Below, in pieces: positions 37,287 to 44,867 of a stretch of DNA of 64,000 bases (positions are counted from its first letter, which is position 1; each line of letters starts with the position of its first letter). This DNA comes from Hanstruepera neustonica. GTDB lineage: Bacteria > Bacteroidota > Bacteroidia > Flavobacteriales > Flavobacteriaceae. Under the pieces are notes generated by a model. That model worked only from the letters and a program-made list of their open reading frames with translations, did not search any database and had not been told where the DNA came from. The stretch is from positions 186,001 through 250,000 of the forward strand of contig NZ_POWF01000003.1 in NCBI RefSeq assembly GCF_002895005.1, written 5' to 3'. Position numbers and translations under genes: made by a program.

Positions 37287-38066
37287 TTATCTACCGCCAT
37301 TAGCCTGAAGGTCTGCCAAACAGGCATTATCAAGTTCAGGTACAGTTCCACCAGAGAGCATATTTAAAATGCCTTCACCTGTTTCGGCAGCCCAATACAT
37401 TAAGCAATTTTCATCATCACAATGTTTTGGGTGCGCTAAATCTTCATGAGGGGATTGTAGTGGCGTACCTAAATTGGTTAATCCTAATAAGTGTCCAAAC
37501 TCATGCTCTATGACCGTGGATTCTAAAACACTTCGGCTTGGCTCCAAAGCACTATCACTGTAATTATGGATATCTTCTTCAAAAATTACGAATGATGTAT
37601 TTCTATAGGCCGTACCCAAAACCACCCCTGAAGAACTGCTACTAGAAGAAGGTGCATCAGCAAAAAATATCCAAACTGCTATTTGGTCTCCAAAATTGTA
37701 TTTTGTTCTGTTTGCGGCTTCGATGCTGGAAATATCATCTATGGAATAAGAACTTAATCCTAGAGAAGGGATTGCGCGAGTTTCTATTGTGATACCATTA
37801 GGCTTGAATGTTCTATCTTCTAAAAATGCTAACAAGTGGTTTTTAGCTAATTCTGTTGGTTCATAACCTTCTACATAAGCCATTTCAATAACCATACTTG
37901 TAAAGTTATTTGCAGACAACAAATCATTAGATGAGGACCCAGTACTCTGAAAGTTTGCAACATTAACACCATTTGAATAGTTTGAACTTGCATCATCTTT
38001 AGAGCATGACATCATTAAAACTAATAGTACTAGAATGCGCGTTATTCTCATTTTCATCATAATCAT
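37287..38066 (-). CDS. Lipoprotein zinc metalloprotease
   Basis: The 259-residue product (several in-frame ATGs; MKMRITRIL at 38057 is a plausible alternative start) has a lipobox (LMMSCSKDD). Its zinc-binding motif VIEHEFGHLLGLTNLG contains HEFGH, followed by candidate third ligands in LAHPKHCDDENCLMYW. This is the zincin family annotated as membrane metalloprotease in flavobacteria, distantly like matrix-type metallopeptidases. A low-complexity serine stretch occurs mid-protein (PSSSSSSSGVV). Substrate unknown. The gene is alone between terminators on the minus strand, next to the surface-signalling locus. Confidence 0.83.
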   Translation of the reverse strand: MIMMKMRITRILVLLVLMMSCSKDDASSNYSNGVNVANFQSTGSSSNDLLSANNFTSMVIEMAYVEGYEPTELAKNHLLAFLEDRTFKPNGITIETRAIPSLGLSSYSIDDISSIEAANRTKYNFGDQIAVWIFFADAPSSSSSSSGVVLGTAYRNTSFVIFEEDIHNYSDSALEPSRSVLESTVIEHEFGHLLGLTNLGTPLQSPHEDLAHPKHCDDENCLMYWAAETGEGILNMLSGGTVPELDNACLADLQANGGR

Positions 38067-38116
38067 ATCTTTTTGTAGTTATACAATTTATATACGAAAA
38101 TTTTTACAAGTTGGAT

Positions 38117-38148
38117 TAAAAAAAAGGCCACCATAGCGGTAGCCTCTC
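38117..38148 (-). terminator. Intrinsic terminator after the large lipoprotein gene
   Basis: On the minus strand GAGGCTACC and GGTGGCC pair (one G-T) around GCTAT, followed by eight T. It is 28 bases past the stop codon of the 779-residue lipoprotein gene. Confidence 0.82.
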
Positions 38149-38175
38149 TTAATCAACTATTTATTAACCTATTAA

Positions 38176-40515
38176 TTATTCCAAACATTGGAAACAATCC
38201 GCTTCTAAATTGTATAAGTCGCCTACTTCATTATCACTTAAGGTACGTTTATACACTCGTAAATCATCTAAATGTCCTTGAAAACCTTCTCCAATGAGAT
38301 ATTCAGAAGTTGGGTCAGATCCAATGGTAAGATTTGAATTTTCTACAACATTTCTCAATGCACCATCTCTGTAAAGTCTCACGGTGTTATTAGAGTCAAC
38401 AGTTACCGTTAGGTGATGCCAATCTGTATTATCCCAAGTAACATCAACCTCTTGATTCCAGTCATTATCCCATAATGTTGTACCTAAATTATCCCCAAAT
38501 AATGGTGTATTTAAGTCATAAACACCTAGGTTGAAACCAACAGTTGCATTACCCGGTTTTCTAAAAAATATTTCTAAATCACCAGCTACTGTATTTTGCA
38601 TTTTAAACCAAACACTTATTGAAAAACTATCGCCTTGTACAATTTGATTTTCGGCTGTGACTGGAATAGAAATATTATCATTTCCTGTGAATCCAATCGC
38701 ACAAGTAGTGTTTCCGGCTCTGTCAGTTACAAAATCATTGGTGATATTTTGTACAACATCGCCAGTAATTAAATCTTGAGCCTCACCCCCAAATGGTATG
38801 TAAATAACCAAATCATTGGTCAATACACCCGGATTGTCACAATTAGAACAATCCTGTTCCATAACCATGGTACTGTTACTGTTTACAGCTTGCATCACCA
38901 ATCTATCATCACGACAATCCACAATAACCCAGCTACCAGTTATAGCTTGAATATCAGGTCCAGCTACATTGCTAAATTCAACTATGGTACCTGCACCTGT
39001 TTGTGAAGTAGACCACATGGATACTATGGTCAATCCATTACCAGTTATAACAACAGTACCATCAGCGTTAAAGTCTAAATCATATACTGCTAAATCATTG
39101 CTGTTATCAAAATCAACAACATTCCATATACATTCTACCAAATAAGCATCCACTTCTTGTTCAGGACACGAACTACTGCAATCTTCAACAACAAGTTCTA
39201 TGGTAAACACTTCAAAATCACCATTGAGTGCTTCAATTCTTAAGTAAACCGTTTGCGGATTTGTCGTATTTACAAAAGCATTTGGTTCCGCTATGGGATT
39301 TACATCAGCTTCCGCATTGGTTTGAGATATATGAAAAGACGGTGTGAAGTCAACATCACAAATAACATTACCAAGTACCAGTGTTTCCAATTCAAAAGTT
39401 GCAAATCCGTCATTGTCAAAATCACAAGCTGTTACTGTGGTGTTGCCAAAGCAATCGAATGGTGTTTCATTACCTGAACAATCTTGCTCCAATTCTAGTG
39501 TAATAGTATTATCTCCTTCTCCTTGGGTAAATACTATTCTATCTCTTTCACAGCCTAATAAAGACCATTCACCATTTAATAGGTTAAACGTTTCTAGCCC
39601 AGCAATAGTTAATATATATCCTGAATTTGACTCTGTTAGAACCCATGAAGCTACTTCTGTTACAGCTGGCGTACCATTTACTATAACTTCACCATTTGAA
39701 TTGAAGTTCAAATAATTTTCATCGATGGCATCTCCCGCAACATTAAATGTATAGCCTACCATATCACACTCTACTAAATGTGCTTCCAATTCAGCAAGAT
39801 TCATTCCGCAATCCACTATAATATCATCCTCACAATTCTCATTAGCGGCATTAATGGCCTCTTCCAACTCTTGATTACCATTCACTTCAACGGTATCCCC
39901 ATTTGCATAAACAAGCGTCACTGGAAAATTTAAACTAGCCAATACAGCACCTTGATTATCGGTTTCCAATCCTTCCAAAAAGACATACAATTCATAGTCA
40001 TTATTAATTTCAACGGTATCAATAATTTGGAAATTCGTATTATAAATTGAGAAAATTATCGGATAAACAAAATCCACACATTCAATTACCTCTTCATTTA
40101 CTACACAGCTTTCAATAAAAGCATCCAGTTCCTCAAGTGTTTCAATAGTTATTTCGGTATAATCATTTAATATAATCGTAATAGGAAACAAAAACTCAAT
40201 AGTATCCTCATTAGTATTATTTTCATCAAAAATGGCTTCAATCAAACTAAAATCATCTATCGATTCAATAGTCAATGTAATACCATTAGCTATAATGGTT
40301 ACTGGCAAATTCACCGAAAAACAATCACTACCATCCATGATATTATCAATCGTTCCATCATTGGCAGCCGTATGTCGCATTAAATTGGCCAAAGTAGAAT
40401 TTGGTGCGATCGTTTCTTCTTGATTTGGAGGTGTTTCTTCGTTGGCTTCTTCCTGACATGATACGCCAACAAATAAAAGCATAAGCAGCAAGAAAAGTGA
40501 TAATCTAAATTTCAT
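38176..40515 (-). CDS. Modular surface lipoprotein with C-terminal LamG domain
   Basis: No named function. The 779-residue product has a lipobox (VGVSCQEE, cysteine 20). In order it carries four N-terminal repeats of the type FPVTIxxxNG...ELxxxI (about 65-225), a first lipocalin-like module (LVECDMVGYTFNV...CERDRIVF, about 235-345), an acidic CDFDNDG module (about 355-445) also seen in the giant secreted protein, and a second lipocalin-like module (ECIWNVVDFDNSND...CRDDRLVM, about 450-555). A LamG/concanavalin-like domain follows (SISVWFKMQ, WHHLTVTVDSNNTVRLYRDG, HLDDLRVYKRTLS). Such domains usually bind carbohydrate or protein. It is divergent from the ECF sigma gene and has the GGTAGGA/CTGTTATAT element in its promoter region. 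Confidence 0.85.
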   Translation of the reverse strand: MKFRLSLFLLLMLLFVGVSCQEEANEETPPNQEETIAPNSTLANLMRHTAANDGTIDNIMDGSDCFSVNLPVTIIANGITLTIESIDDFSLIEAIFDENNTNEDTIEFLFPITIILNDYTEITIETLEELDAFIESCVVNEEVIECVDFVYPIIFSIYNTNFQIIDTVEINNDYELYVFLEGLETDNQGAVLASLNFPVTLVYANGDTVEVNGNQELEEAINAANENCEDDIIVDCGMNLAELEAHLVECDMVGYTFNVAGDAIDENYLNFNSNGEVIVNGTPAVTEVASWVLTESNSGYILTIAGLETFNLLNGEWSLLGCERDRIVFTQGEGDNTITLELEQDCSGNETPFDCFGNTTVTACDFDNDGFATFELETLVLGNVICDVDFTPSFHISQTNAEADVNPIAEPNAFVNTTNPQTVYLRIEALNGDFEVFTIELVVEDCSSSCPEQEVDAYLVECIWNVVDFDNSNDLAVYDLDFNADGTVVITGNGLTIVSMWSTSQTGAGTIVEFSNVAGPDIQAITGSWVIVDCRDDRLVMQAVNSNSTMVMEQDCSNCDNPGVLTNDLVIYIPFGGEAQDLITGDVVQNITNDFVTDRAGNTTCAIGFTGNDNISIPVTAENQIVQGDSFSISVWFKMQNTVAGDLEIFFRKPGNATVGFNLGVYDLNTPLFGDNLGTTLWDNDWNQEVDVTWDNTDWHHLTVTVDSNNTVRLYRDGALRNVVENSNLTIGSDPTSEYLIGEGFQGHLDDLRVYKRTLSDNEVGDLYNLEADCFQCLE

Positions 40516-40541: not shown

Positions 40542-40572
40542 ATATAACAGCTCAATTTAAAAATGTCCTACC
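40542..40572 (-). promoter_or_regulatory. Putative ECF-sigma promoter of the large lipoprotein gene
   Basis: On the minus strand GGTAGGA (40572-40566), 15 bases, then CTGTTATAT (40550-40542). The last base is 27 bases before the ATG. The same two boxes with the same 15-base spacer precede fecR at 41140-41170. Confidence 0.75.
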
Positions 40573-40615
40573 CTGAATTTCTTTTTTTATACATTTACGA
40601 GCATAAAATTTAAAA

Positions 40616-41131
40616 ATGCCTAAAGATTTAAATGACCATATATGTGATGAAGCCCTGTTTTCAAAGGCATTTAATAGCTATGCAAAAGATTTACATGATT
40701 TTTTGTACTATAAATTTGGCAGCCATATAAATCCACAGGATAAAGTACAAGAAGCTTTTGTGAAACTCTGGCAAAAATGTCAAGATGTAGCACCATCTAA
40801 AGCCAAATCATTTTTATTTACGGTAGCCAATAATTTAACGCTGAATGATATTGCTCATCAAAAAGTAGTTTTAAAATTTCAGCAAACGAAACCCAAATCT
40901 TCAACCAATGAGAACCCGGAATTCATCATGGAAGAACACGAGTATAAAATAAAATTACAAAACGCTATTGCTAATTTGTCTGAAGCGCAACGTGTAGCTT
41001 TTTTGATGAATCGGATTGAAGGTAAAAAACTCAAGGAAATCGCAGACATTTTAAACATCTCTCAAAAAGCAGTAGAAAAGCGAATTTATGGTGCATTAAA
41101 ACAATTGCGTCAAGAAATTGATGGCATTTAA
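40616..41131 (+). CDS. ECF RNA polymerase sigma factor
   Basis: The 171-residue protein has sigma region 2 (YAKDLHDFLYYKFGSHINPQDKVQEAFVKLWQ region, split as helix and the DKVQEAFVKLW core) and region 4 with the helix-turn-helix LKEIADILNISQKAVEKRIYGAL. It lacks a C-terminal extension. It is the Bacteroidota type that pairs with FecR anti-sigma factors. The fecR gene follows after 56 bases, in which the shared promoter-like element is found. The sigma gene itself lacks that element and may be expressed by the housekeeping sigma factor: TACATTTA at 40590-40597 is one base off the -7 consensus. Confidence 0.93.
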   Translation: MPKDLNDHICDEALFSKAFNSYAKDLHDFLYYKFGSHINPQDKVQEAFVKLWQKCQDVAPSKAKSFLFTVANNLTLNDIAHQKVVLKFQQTKPKSSTNENPEFIMEEHEYKIKLQNAIANLSEAQRVAFLMNRIEGKKLKEIADILNISQKAVEKRIYGALKQLRQEIDGI

Positions 41132-41139
41132 AATTTTGA

Positions 41140-41170
41140 GGTAGGAAAAATGAGGATGAACCTGTTATAT
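41140..41170 (+). promoter_or_regulatory. Putative ECF-sigma promoter of fecR and the TonB receptor
   Basis: GGTAGGA (41140-41146), 15 bases, then CTGTTATAT (41162-41170) lies in the gap between the sigma gene and fecR, 18 bases before the fecR start. It is identical in both boxes and spacer length to the element on the minus strand at 40542-40572. Confidence 0.75.
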
Positions 41171-41187
41171 AATTAAGTGACCCATTT

Positions 41188-42081
41188 ATGGATAGAGAAT
41201 ATTTAATAAAAAAATGGTTAGACCACGACTTAAACGCCGAGGAACTTCAGGCTTTTCAGGCTTTGGATGACTATCGTGAACTAACAAAACTATCAAATTC
41301 CCTGGAAGGTTTTAAGGCTCCGGATTTTGACAGTGAATCTGCATATTTAAATATTCAGGATAAAATTTCATTAGAAAAATCTAAAATATCTTGGTTTAAA
41401 CCATTTTTGCGCATAGCCTCCATTATTGCTGTGCTACTGGCTGTTTATTTCTACACGACCACATTAGACACAACAACCACTACATATTTTGCTGAAAAAA
41501 CGGAGATTTACCTACCTGACCAAAGCAAGGTTAGTTTGAATGCGCAATCGCAATTGACCTATAATAAACACGATTGGCAATCGAAACGTGATGTCAATTT
41601 GAATGGCGAAGCCTACTTTGATGTGGAAAAGGGTTCGGAATTCAATGTGATTACTGATAATGGTACCGTAACCGTGTTGGGAACAGAATTCAATGTTAAA
41701 AATAGACCAGGCTTTTTTGAAACCGTTTGCTATGAAGGTTCCGTCAAAGTCATTTCCAATAACCAAACTAAAATATTAAAACCTGGAGATCAGTTTTTAA
41801 TTATTGATGGGAATTATATTGCTCAAGAAAAAGAAAAAAACAATCAACCTAGTTGGTTACAAAATGAAAGTTATTTTAAGAGTATTCCTTACAAGTATGT
41901 GCTACGCGAGTTTGAAAGACAATATCATGTGACTTTCAATACAGAATCTATTGATACGGACAAGCTGTATACTGGTAGTTTTGTACATAACGATCAGGAA
42001 TTGGCCTTGAAAGCCATTACATTACCTCTAAATATTAACTTTACAATTAAAAATAGTGTGATTGTACTAAACCGTGAGTAG
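41188..42081 (+). CDS. FecR family anti-sigma factor
   Basis: The 297-residue single-pass membrane protein has a cytoplasmic N-terminus of about 70 residues (sigma-binding; LIKKWLDHDLNAEELQAF), one membrane helix (FLRIASIIAVLLAVYFY), and a periplasmic FecR domain (EIYLPDQSKVSLNAQSQLTYN, VLGTEFNVKNRPGFFETVCYEGSVKV). A C-terminal DUF4974-like domain follows (KSIPYKYVLREFERQYHVTF, LNINFTIKNSVIVLNRE). It would hold the adjacent ECF sigma factor until the TonB receptor signals. Its last codons overlap the receptor start. Confidence 0.93.
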   Translation: MDREYLIKKWLDHDLNAEELQAFQALDDYRELTKLSNSLEGFKAPDFDSESAYLNIQDKISLEKSKISWFKPFLRIASIIAVLLAVYFYTTTLDTTTTTYFAEKTEIYLPDQSKVSLNAQSQLTYNKHDWQSKRDVNLNGEAYFDVEKGSEFNVITDNGTVTVLGTEFNVKNRPGFFETVCYEGSVKVISNNQTKILKPGDQFLIIDGNYIAQEKEKNNQPSWLQNESYFKSIPYKYVLREFERQYHVTFNTESIDTDKLYTGSFVHNDQELALKAITLPLNINFTIKNSVIVLNRE

Positions 42082-44365
42082 CATAAAAATCAAAATTTTT
42101 AGCTGTTTGTTACTGCTATTTACTATTTCTGTTGGTGCCCAAAACTTAAGTAACGGCAAACAACCCCTATCCGATGCTCTTGAATTACTATCCGAGCAGT
42201 ATCAGATACGCTTTTCATATGCTGATGAGCATATTGCCGACAAGGTGATTACTTTACCCAAAGGCGAACAATCACTCAATACGATATTGACTTTCATACA
42301 ACGGGAAACCAATCTTGTATTCCAAGAAATTAGCCCCAATAATTATGTGATCATAAACGGTAATGCGCCTACCCAGTTTTTAGACGAAGTTCTCATAACC
42401 AAATACCTTACCGAAGGTATCTCATTACAAACAGATGGTACTTCAAAAATTAATCTAGATGAATTTGGCATCTTACCTGGACTAATCGAACCCGATGTTT
42501 TGCAAACCATACAGGCCTTACCAGGCATCATTAGTGTTGATGAACGCGTATCCAACCTTAATATTCGTGGTGGCACCAATGACCAAAATTTAATTCTCTG
42601 GGATGGTATCAAAATGTATCAATCAGGTCATTTTTTTGGATTGATTTCACCATTTAACCCAACATTGATTCATGATATTTCAATATCCAAAAATGGCAGT
42701 AGTGCGGAATATGGTGATGGCGTTTCAGGGATAATCAATATGCATACATCAGATAGTAATGCTAACAAAATAATTGGTGGATTGGGAAGCAACCTGATTG
42801 CTTATGATGGTTTCGCCAAAATACCTGTTACTGATAAAATTGGCATTCAGGTATCTGCCAGACGATCTCTCACCGATGTATTTAACACACCTACTTATGA
42901 CCAATATTTTGATCGAATTTTTCAAGATTCGGACCTAACACAACAGAATAATAATCAGGTCACTCAAGATGAGCGCTTTTATTTTTATGATGTGTCGTCA
43001 AAACTCACTTTTAAACTTTCAAAAAAAGACCTCATCACCGTTAGCGGATTAAAGATTTTTAATTCCTTAGACTATAGAGAAACAGCCACCGGAATAGCGA
43101 ACAAACAATCCTCAACGAGCAAGCTTATTCAGGAGAGTACAGCTTTAGGAATTGACTACAAGCGGCAATGGCATTCGAAGTTGCAAACCAGTTTTAAGAT
43201 TTCACTTTCTAATTACGATTTAAACTCAAGAAACAATGATATTGATAATAACCAACGGCTTATTCAGGAAAATGATGTTCGTGATAACCGGTTTGAATTG
43301 CAAGCCAATTATCAGATAAATCAAAACTTGAATTATTTGGGTGGTTACCAATATGCAGAAATTGGCATGAGTAATCTGGAAGATGTGAACAATCCGGAAT
43401 ACAGACGTTACATAAAGGATGTTTTAAGGTCGCATGGTCTTTTTAATGAAGTAAGTTTTAAATCCAATTCAGGAAAAACACATGCCAGATTAGGTATTAG
43501 AGCCAATTATTTTGAGAAGTTTTCTGATTTCTTTTTAGAACCACGCTTGGTGATCAATCAAAAAATAGCCAATGACTTCCGATTAGAGCTATTGGCTGAG
43601 CTAAAAAGCCAAACAGCTTCTCAAATCATTGATTTACAAGATGACTTTTTAGGTGTCGAAAAAAGACGCTGGATACTGGCAAACAATGATGATATCCCCA
43701 TCATTCAAAGTCAGCAGGTATCATTAGGAACCCATTACCAAAAGAAGAAACTCCTTATTAGTTTGGAAGGCTACATCAAACACGTGGATGGCATTACAAC
43801 CCGAAGCCAAGGATTCCAAAATCAGTACCAATATACCAATGCCATTGGTTCTTATAGTGTAACGGGTTTAGATTTTTTAATCAATCAGCAATTTGACAAT
43901 TGGAGCACTTGGTTAAGCTATTCATTGAGTAAAAACAATTACACCTTTGATGATTTAAACAATGGAAATCAATTTCCAAACAATATAAACATTAGACATC
44001 AGGTGACTTTTGCTGGAACATACAGTATCAACAATTTAAAACTGGCACTGGGTTTCAATTGGCGTTCTGGCAGACCCACGACTTATTATAATGTTTCCAA
44101 TCCTGTTTCGGGAAATGACATCAATTATTTAGAACCTAACAGCAACAATCTATCGTCTTACTTTAGAGCAGATTGCTCGGCTACCTATAAAATTAATATT
44201 GCCAAAAACTGGCATGCCCACATTGGTGCTTCCCTTTGGAATATCTTCAACACCAAAAACACCATTAATCGCTACTACCGATTAACAGATTCAAACACCA
44301 TTTCCGAAATCAATACAGAATCTTTGGGCATGACACCCAACGTGACGTTTAGGGTGAGTTTTTAA
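42074..44365 (+). CDS. TonB-dependent receptor with N-terminal signalling (STN) domain
   Basis: The 763-residue protein starts at GTG 42074, overlapping fecR by eight bases. A signal peptide (LLLFTISVGAQ) is followed by a secretin/TonB short N-terminal domain (ALELLSEQYQIRFSYADE... to NNYVIING, about 30-92), which in transducing receptors contacts FecR. The plug domain comes directly (EPDVLQTIQALPGI, NIRGGTNDQNLILWDGIKMY, EYGDGVSGIINM) without the carboxypeptidase-like domain frequent in Bacteroidota. A beta-barrel follows with a terminal strand ending VTFRVSF. No SusD partner is adjacent. The ligand is unknown; sigma/FecR coupling implies that it regulates its own locus. Confidence 0.93.
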   Translation: MSSIKIKIFSCLLLLFTISVGAQNLSNGKQPLSDALELLSEQYQIRFSYADEHIADKVITLPKGEQSLNTILTFIQRETNLVFQEISPNNYVIINGNAPTQFLDEVLITKYLTEGISLQTDGTSKINLDEFGILPGLIEPDVLQTIQALPGIISVDERVSNLNIRGGTNDQNLILWDGIKMYQSGHFFGLISPFNPTLIHDISISKNGSSAEYGDGVSGIINMHTSDSNANKIIGGLGSNLIAYDGFAKIPVTDKIGIQVSARRSLTDVFNTPTYDQYFDRIFQDSDLTQQNNNQVTQDERFYFYDVSSKLTFKLSKKDLITVSGLKIFNSLDYRETATGIANKQSSTSKLIQESTALGIDYKRQWHSKLQTSFKISLSNYDLNSRNNDIDNNQRLIQENDVRDNRFELQANYQINQNLNYLGGYQYAEIGMSNLEDVNNPEYRRYIKDVLRSHGLFNEVSFKSNSGKTHARLGIRANYFEKFSDFFLEPRLVINQKIANDFRLELLAELKSQTASQIIDLQDDFLGVEKRRWILANNDDIPIIQSQQVSLGTHYQKKKLLISLEGYIKHVDGITTRSQGFQNQYQYTNAIGSYSVTGLDFLINQQFDNWSTWLSYSLSKNNYTFDDLNNGNQFPNNINIRHQVTFAGTYSINNLKLALGFNWRSGRPTTYYNVSNPVSGNDINYLEPNSNNLSSYFRADCSATYKINIAKNWHAHIGASLWNIFNTKNTINRYYRLTDSNTISEINTESLGMTPNVTFRVSF

Positions 44366-44369
44366 AAGA

Positions 44370-44867
44370 TTATATTTTTTCGAATATCAGTTCGTCTGTA
44401 CCACCATTACCACCACTCACACTTTTCAATTCGATTCGTGTATCGTTGTAGGCTTCCACATCCCAATCATCAGAAAGTTCTTCATAATTTGGAGGCGATG
44501 CAAAATTGAGATTAAAATTCACACCATCATTATCACTATTGTTGTTCACTAACCATGTTCCGTTGTGGGTGTCAATACCATCTGTTGCCGCTACACTGCC
44601 CTGCGAATTAAACATAAAGGCAAAACCCGTATAATTATTAGTTTCCTCATGGTCTGTATCAAAATAAAAAACGACACGCCAGGAACCTTGCTGCATTAAA
44701 GCATTAACCTGTTGTACCTGCAAAGACACATTATTACCACCACCATTGCCACCTCCATTTCCACCTCCAACAGTGGTATTGCTATTATCGTTTGAACTGG
44801 AACAAGCCCCTAAAACAAATAACAGAGACAATGCTAAAACTTTTGTACTAGAGATTAACGTTTTCAT
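44370..44867 (-). CDS. Small lipoprotein with a lipocalin-like module
   Basis: The 165-residue product has a lipobox (LLFVLGACSSS), a Gly/Asn linker (GGGNGGGNGGGNN) and a single beta-rich module: QGSWRVVFYFDTDHEETNNYTG, FMFNSQGSVAATDG, GTWLVNNNSDNDG, and TRIELKSV. The same order of motifs (WxVxxFxD, LdFNxxGxV, G-x-Wxxx, DRIxL) occurs twice in the 779-residue lipoprotein on the other side of the sigma/FecR/receptor genes. It converges with the receptor gene, four bases apart. I did not find the GGTAGGA/CTGTTATAT element upstream of it (44868-45000). Function unknown. Confidence 0.8.
   Translation of the reverse strand: MKTLISSTKVLALSLLFVLGACSSSNDNSNTTVGGGNGGGNGGGNNVSLQVQQVNALMQQGSWRVVFYFDTDHEETNNYTGFAFMFNSQGSVAATDGIDTHNGTWLVNNNSDNDGVNFNLNFASPPNYEELSDDWDVEAYNDTRIELKSVSGGNGGTDELIFEKI

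Follow-up and report, generated by a model that had tools for sequence, protein, structure and literature searches.

Predicted ECF sigma factor promoters before a FecR-receptor operon and a divergent lipoprotein gene in Hanstruepera neustonica and other Flavobacteriaceae

Two copies of a two-box element flank an ECF sigma factor gene of Hanstruepera neustonica, one facing fecR and the gene of a TonB-dependent receptor, the other facing the divergently oriented gene of a lipoprotein. Very likely, both are promoters used by RNA polymerase together with the product of this sigma factor gene. The first-pass annotation had already suggested that this sigma factor recognises them, and the suggestion is now supported by family-wide conservation of the element, its variation in step with the sigma factor and its co-occurrence with it. 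Beyond that annotation, the analysis refines the boxes and the spacer, documents recurrence throughout the family and a TCAGGA class in a paralogous system, and adds a conserved lipoprotein partner as well as a residue that is a candidate for specificity. ECF recognition sequences in flavobacteria are poorly known, and a defined promoter signature in which the spacer length is fixed can now be given.

Organisation of the locus

Three components of a FecI/FecR/FecA-type system, an ECF sigma factor, a FecR-domain regulator and a TonB-dependent receptor, are all present in one locus of the window (the whole stretch of 64,000 nucleotides analysed). The sigma factor (171 aa; 40616..41131, plus strand) contains Pfam Sigma70_r2 and Sigma70_r4_2 domains; its best NCBIfam match, TIGR02985 (RNA polymerase sigma-70 factor, Sig70_bacteroi1), scores 105.8 bits, under the cut-off of 126.4. 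It is followed on the same strand by a FecR-type sigma regulator (297 aa; 41188..42081), which matches Pfam FecR and FecR_C over the cut-off and is the first gene of the predicted target operon. The TonB-dependent receptor (763 aa; 42074..44365, plus strand) overlaps fecR by 8 bases and matches Pfam Plug and, at residues 29-93, FecR_C. The latter match is marginal (25.1 against a cut-off of 24.4), the stretch occupies the place expected of the signalling domain, and the Pfam search listed no STN match. A FecR-family search of the genome returned two FecR genes, one here and one at a paralogous locus.

Upstream, and divergent from the sigma factor gene, lies the gene of a 779-residue lipoprotein (38176..40515, minus strand), which we characterised by Pfam and by alignment with 20 relatives. 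About 30 bases past its stop codon there is a strong hairpin followed by T8 (within 38110..38160, minus strand; RNA fold of -20.8 kcal/mol, z -5.06). It was not among the listings of a simple terminator scan. The structure probably acts as a terminator, which would leave the lipoprotein gene monocistronic. Further on, a 259-residue lipoprotein-like protein (37287-38066, minus strand) gave a weak archaemetzincin-type match (19.6 bits against a cut-off of 145). At the other end of the locus, a convergent lipoprotein of 165 aa (44370..44867, minus strand) is homologous to repeated C-terminal modules in the divergent lipoprotein of one relative (L077; 44% identity, E 4e-30). No ECF element was found before its gene when the window was scanned.

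The two copies of the element

One copy (40542..40572, minus strand) is located in the 100-base gap between the divergent lipoprotein and sigma factor genes, and the other (41140..41170, plus strand) in the 56-base gap between the sigma factor gene and fecR. Both are predicted ECF promoters, of the lipoprotein gene and of the fecR-receptor operon respectively, on the strength of their exact sequence, conservation in orthologues and a motif found de novo. On the lipoprotein side the -35 box GTAGGA (40571-40566) and the -10 box TGTTATA (40549-40543) are separated by 16 bases; the same boxes and spacer recur on the fecR side (41141-41146 and 41163-41169). The longer string GGTAGGA-N15-CTGTTATAT, initially reported at 40572-40542 (minus) and 41140-41170 (plus), is exact in both places. 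Box and start codon are 26 bases apart for the lipoprotein gene (ATG at 40515) and 17 for fecR (ATG at 41188), where 27 and 18 had been noted, a matter of counting convention.

These two are the only exact copies of the string in the window, and a search of the whole genome (3,046,606 bases in 16 contigs) found no third. Near copies with up to three mismatches number 25 genome-wide against 27 for a reversed-pattern control and hence show no excess. When the gaps were shuffled with dinucleotides kept, the two longest exact runs on a single diagonal added up to at least 16 bases in 4 of 3000 shuffles. The similarity, described earlier as very unlikely by chance, is indeed rare, but at about 1 in 750 from two gaps the figure is milder than that wording implied. 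Judged from this genome alone, the element pair is suggestive and not overwhelming. In our reading the question of chance is settled by comparative evidence and not by local similarity.

Conservation in the genus and the family

In the four other genomes of the genus, where the receptor is 60-82% identical, the fecR-side copy is kept in all four; conservation at orthologous loci was the test set in the first-pass annotation. The divergent copy is exact in two of the four and has changed -10 bases, GGTAGGA-N15-TTGTTTTAT, in the other two.

Relatives of the sigma factor were collected from 59 loci in a species-level genome collection and from a sample of the family, in which 103 of 149 genera have a member (E up to 1e-25); 140 loci were fetched among at least 150 places listed. 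The 208 pooled loci gave 198 distinct sigma factors, 196 after two truncated sequences were dropped and 190 after removal of six distant ones. At two loci (L041 and L042) reading started one codon ahead of the ATG.

A template-free de novo motif search recovered the same two boxes independently in the fecR-side gap (194 loci) and the divergent gap (195 loci), with log-likelihoods of 1662 and 1805, respectively, compared with 154 and 207 for dinucleotide shuffles. Among strong sites (12 of 13 positions) at the 196 loci, the 16-base spacer is present in 137/140 on the fecR side and 132/139 on the divergent side, and the opposite-strand controls yielded just two and four sites, correspondingly. 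The element as first described had two boxes at fixed spacing, which hold; the leading G of GGTAGGA is just partly conserved across relatives. The refined element, as predicted from the boxes conserved in relatives, is GTAGGR-N16-TGTYNTA. The base preceding TGTY is C or T in 133/138 fecR-side and 111/115 divergent-side sites of the GTA type, and the spacer is far less conserved than the boxes. The -10 box lies a median of 18 bases from the fecR ATG (quartiles 17-20, range 3-93, n=171). Loci of the Aureibaculum type (L059, L060, L065, L067 and L068) have two tandem copies before fecR, about 75 bases apart.

No element was called on the fecR side of 16 and on the divergent side of 35 of the 190 loci. 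A phylum-wide draw found the sigma factor in 30 of 296 genomes, 26 of them within the family. Among the 30 best loci from this draw, some of which were already in the main set, the element was absent from 8/30 on each side and from 4/30 on both sides; the latter four comprise one locus of the family, one of the class and two of the phylum.

These data bear on the possibility that the two copies resemble one another by chance, or by common ancestry of homologous intergenic DNA. The resemblance is indeed matched by a few shuffles, as given above, yet the boxes are conserved where the spacer is much less so, the element is common to two gaps that flank different genes on opposite strands, and the opposite-strand controls are almost empty. 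Site enrichment, locus counts and the de novo motif already contradict this explanation, to which we give hardly any credence.

Link of the element to the sigma factor

Element calls were obtained on both sides of 149 of the 190 loci. The first three -35 bases are identical between the two copies in 132 of these; with near variants pooled (GTA with GTG; TCA with TAA and TCG) the copies agree in 142 and disagree in seven. The sixth -35 base also agrees, in 99 of the 103 loci with GTAGGA or GTAGGG on both sides.

The recognition helix of sigma region 4.2 reads the -35 box. Residue 155 in this helix is lysine in all 145 sigma factors with GTAGGR, tyrosine in all 30 with TCAGGA-type elements and histidine in all three with TTGGGA. 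The -35 core tracks this residue in 178/178 classified sigma factors, in a classification that favoured GTAGG and TCAGG whenever several candidates were present; 12 further sigma factors, whose element class could not be assigned, all have K155, as does the sigma factor of the window. Residue and -35 core each change just twice on the tree, so shared ancestry could still account for the association, which is consistent with a contact and no proof of one. Alignments with ECF sigma factors of known structure, three of which were displayed, have serine at the equivalent position in those three. We propose residue 155 as a candidate -35 specificity residue and offer a regulon prediction for a sigma factor clade found in 103 of 149 sampled genera. 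No single sigma factor residue emerged as a match for the change of the sixth -35 base (A to G): Y158 is found in 70/70 sigma factors with GTAGGA but also in 9/75 with GTAGGG, and an independent-pairs test for this base gave three supported pairs and no significance.

Element sites number 469 against 188 for the reversed control in the 103 genomes with the sigma factor, and 39 against 53 in the 46 genomes that lack it. The element adjoins the gene of the ECF sigma factor, its probable cognate, and is distributed together with it.

Another kind of regulator might in principle bind a conserved pair of boxes with constant spacing, and the elements would then be operators for a DNA-binding repressor or activator instead of promoters. 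We consider this very improbable: the boxes are not repeats of one another, the element is directional and stands at a short, nearly constant distance ahead of fecR, and it both co-occurs with the sigma factor and tracks its recognition helix. The sequences compared show directly how the elements are oriented, spaced and conserved, how they vary in step with one another and with the sigma factor, and that they occur together with it; a pair of ECF promoters is the reading that we pursue below.

Control of the sigma factor gene

The initial proposal that the sigma factor does not control its own gene fits the family-wide data. The strict element points toward the sigma factor gene in 0/190 loci and away from it in 127/190; with the looser 12-of-13 score, an element toward the sigma factor gene appears in 4/196 loci, one of them with a 16-base spacer. 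TAnnTTTG is present upstream of the sigma factor gene in 75 of 190 loci; the opposite strand has it in 13, and shuffled sequence in about 16. One report gives TAnnTTTG as the -7 box of housekeeping promoters in the phylum (PMC7366714). In the window, a possible housekeeping-type promoter region of the sigma factor gene, TTTTTTTATACATTTAC (40580..40600, plus strand), is TAnnTTTR-like, distinct from the ECF element and repeated in close relatives. Inspection by eye revealed regions of this kind in 8 of 10 loci displayed; the copy in the window ends in TTTA where the enriched box has TTTG.

The divergent lipoprotein family

The divergent lipoprotein comprises a conserved N-terminal core of about 235 residues, a variable C-terminal part and a C-terminal Laminin_G_3 domain. 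The alignment, made of 20 of 25 listed relatives and the window's own protein (21 sequences), shows the predicted lipidation cysteine and three more invariant cysteines in the core, with divergence behind it. No Pfam or NCBIfam model matched the core. Among 59 fetched stretches, homologues of the core were found in 42, of FecR in 56 and of the receptor in 51, counts in which the core may be anywhere in the stretch and some stretches stop too early to judge. Two stretches have their core match on the opposite strand.

The architecture varies among relatives. At the Aquimarina loci L056, L061, L063, L064 and L073 the divergent lipoprotein consists of the N-terminal core alone (about 225 residues), and a separate larger gene lies behind it on the same strand. 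Beside the divergent lipoprotein gene, the loci L043-L046 of the paralogous system have a small gene that looks like that of a lipoprotein. A lipoprotein family in which no Pfam or NCBIfam model matched the core is now tied, by prediction, to a surface-signalling circuit.

Extent of the regulon and a paralogous system

Control of fecR, the receptor and the divergent lipoprotein gene, as the first-pass annotation had it, is borne out as a prediction of two promoters and three genes. A genome-wide scan for further regulon members, a check which that annotation had also proposed, returned nothing convincing. The genome contains three exact matches to GTAGGR-N16-TGTYNTA, of which the third was rejected, being inside a coding frame; with up to one mismatch there are 36 matches (exact ones included) against 51 for the reversed control, i.e. 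no excess. The best reading is a narrow FecI-like regulon, predicted to comprise three genes in two transcripts here.

The regulon may differ in size in relatives. We fetched 20 remote GTAGGR sites from three of them (10 from G123, five from G040 and five from G063), and these were mixed, with several inside long open frames. In G040, four of the five fetched sites precede proteins with an exported-looking N-terminus, as judged by eye, suggesting a wider surface regulon in this relative. Exact sites of G040 precede a BspA-type leucine-rich-repeat protein, a lipoprotein, a lamin-tail/CotH protein and a small exported protein.

A paralogous sigma-FecR-receptor-lipoprotein system is encoded in the same genome (G000:C1:111500-121500) with the same layout, a TCAGGA -35 box, TGTT in the -10 box and identical spacing. 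Its sigma factor is 53% identical to that of the window, and among the congeners fetched the locus is present in three. TCAGGA-N16-TGTTNTA with up to one mismatch occurs 29 times in the genome against 17 for the reversed control. Six sites are exact: two at the paralogous locus, two within coding frames and two intergenic. One of the remote intergenic sites precedes a lipoprotein-like frame of 225 residues by 27 bases; the other lies upstream of a frame of 270 residues with a TTG start. The regulon of the paralogous sigma factor may be slightly wider.

Such a close paralogue, sharing the -10 box and the spacing, raises the question of whether the elements of the window, as promoters of the proposed class, depend chiefly on a different ECF sigma factor, for example this paralogue, or on more than one, with specificities that overlap. 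For F. psychrophilum, it has been suggested that ECF sigma factors are functionally redundant and that their regulons overlap in part (PMC9723704). We regard this as improbable here: the paralogue's own sites are TCAGGA and not GTAGGA, the two copies of a locus share their -35 type in the 142 of 149 cases reported above, and genomes that lack the sigma factor have no more element sites than the control. Recognition by the sigma factor encoded between the elements is the explanation that we retain.

Proposed circuit

In the circuit that we propose, the sigma factor gene would be expressed from a housekeeping-type promoter, and FecR in the inner membrane would restrain the sigma factor as long as no signal comes from the TonB-dependent receptor. 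The active sigma factor would then drive transcription of fecR and the receptor gene on one side and of the divergent lipoprotein gene on the other. As its predicted target operon includes fecR, a feedback loop would be closed through FecR. In this scheme, sigma factor binding and the points where transcription begins are inferred, and so are the signal and the direction in which FecR acts.

A more far-reaching reading, which we offer as speculation and think rather unlikely, is that these loci are family-wide insulated self-surveillance circuits. Each flavobacterial sigma factor of the clade would serve its own receptor/FecR operon together with its own modular surface lipoprotein, and the receptor would sense, instead of an iron carrier, the presence or assembly of the lipoprotein, or of matter bound to it. 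A one-residue switch in the recognition helix (K, Y or H at position 155, corresponding to GTA, TCA or TTG at -35) would separate the paralogous circuits of one cell.

Comparison with known systems

No description of GTAGGR-N16-TGTYNTA was found in the literature searched, which consisted of passages of article text and search listings. The one flavobacterial transcription-start study encountered, on F. psychrophilum, describes a single ECF-type motif (PMC9723704). This motif, SM6, is likewise an ECF-type promoter of the same family with a GT-containing -10 region; unlike the element described here, it carries a CGT box, and several genes of type IX secretion follow it (PMC9723704).

In B. thetaiotaomicron, the non-canonical promoter motif 2, with elements at -30 and -10, has been linked to the ECF sigma factors SigW-1 and SigH-1 in the accessible portions of two papers (PMC7366714, PMC12596196). 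The second of these notes TGTT close to -10 for a pair of promoters ascribed to SigW-1 and reports the SigW-1 motif as non-significant (PMC12596196, accessible text). As far as these portions go, motif 2 belongs to other sigma factors and other targets, and the comparison covers the -10 side.

The closest parallel in gene content is the FecI-FecR-FecA system of E. coli, which likewise combines an ECF sigma factor, a FecR-type regulator and a TonB-dependent receptor (PMC9249621, in part). The same source, in the part available, states that fecIR is not autoregulated in E. coli and that FecI serves one promoter (PMC9249621). Very few target promoters and a sigma factor gene without autoregulation would be common to E. 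coli Fec and the Hanstruepera system. The E. coli system is one of ferric citrate surface signalling; the likeness here is one of genes and sequence. In E. coli, according to the accessible text, fecIR forms one Fur-controlled unit, whereas here fecR is set apart from the sigma factor gene and stands, together with the receptor gene, behind a predicted sigma factor promoter. The Hanstruepera boxes, GTAGGR and TGTYNTA, differ from those of E. coli Fec, and, unlike that system, the one described here has a conserved second predicted target, the divergent lipoprotein gene.
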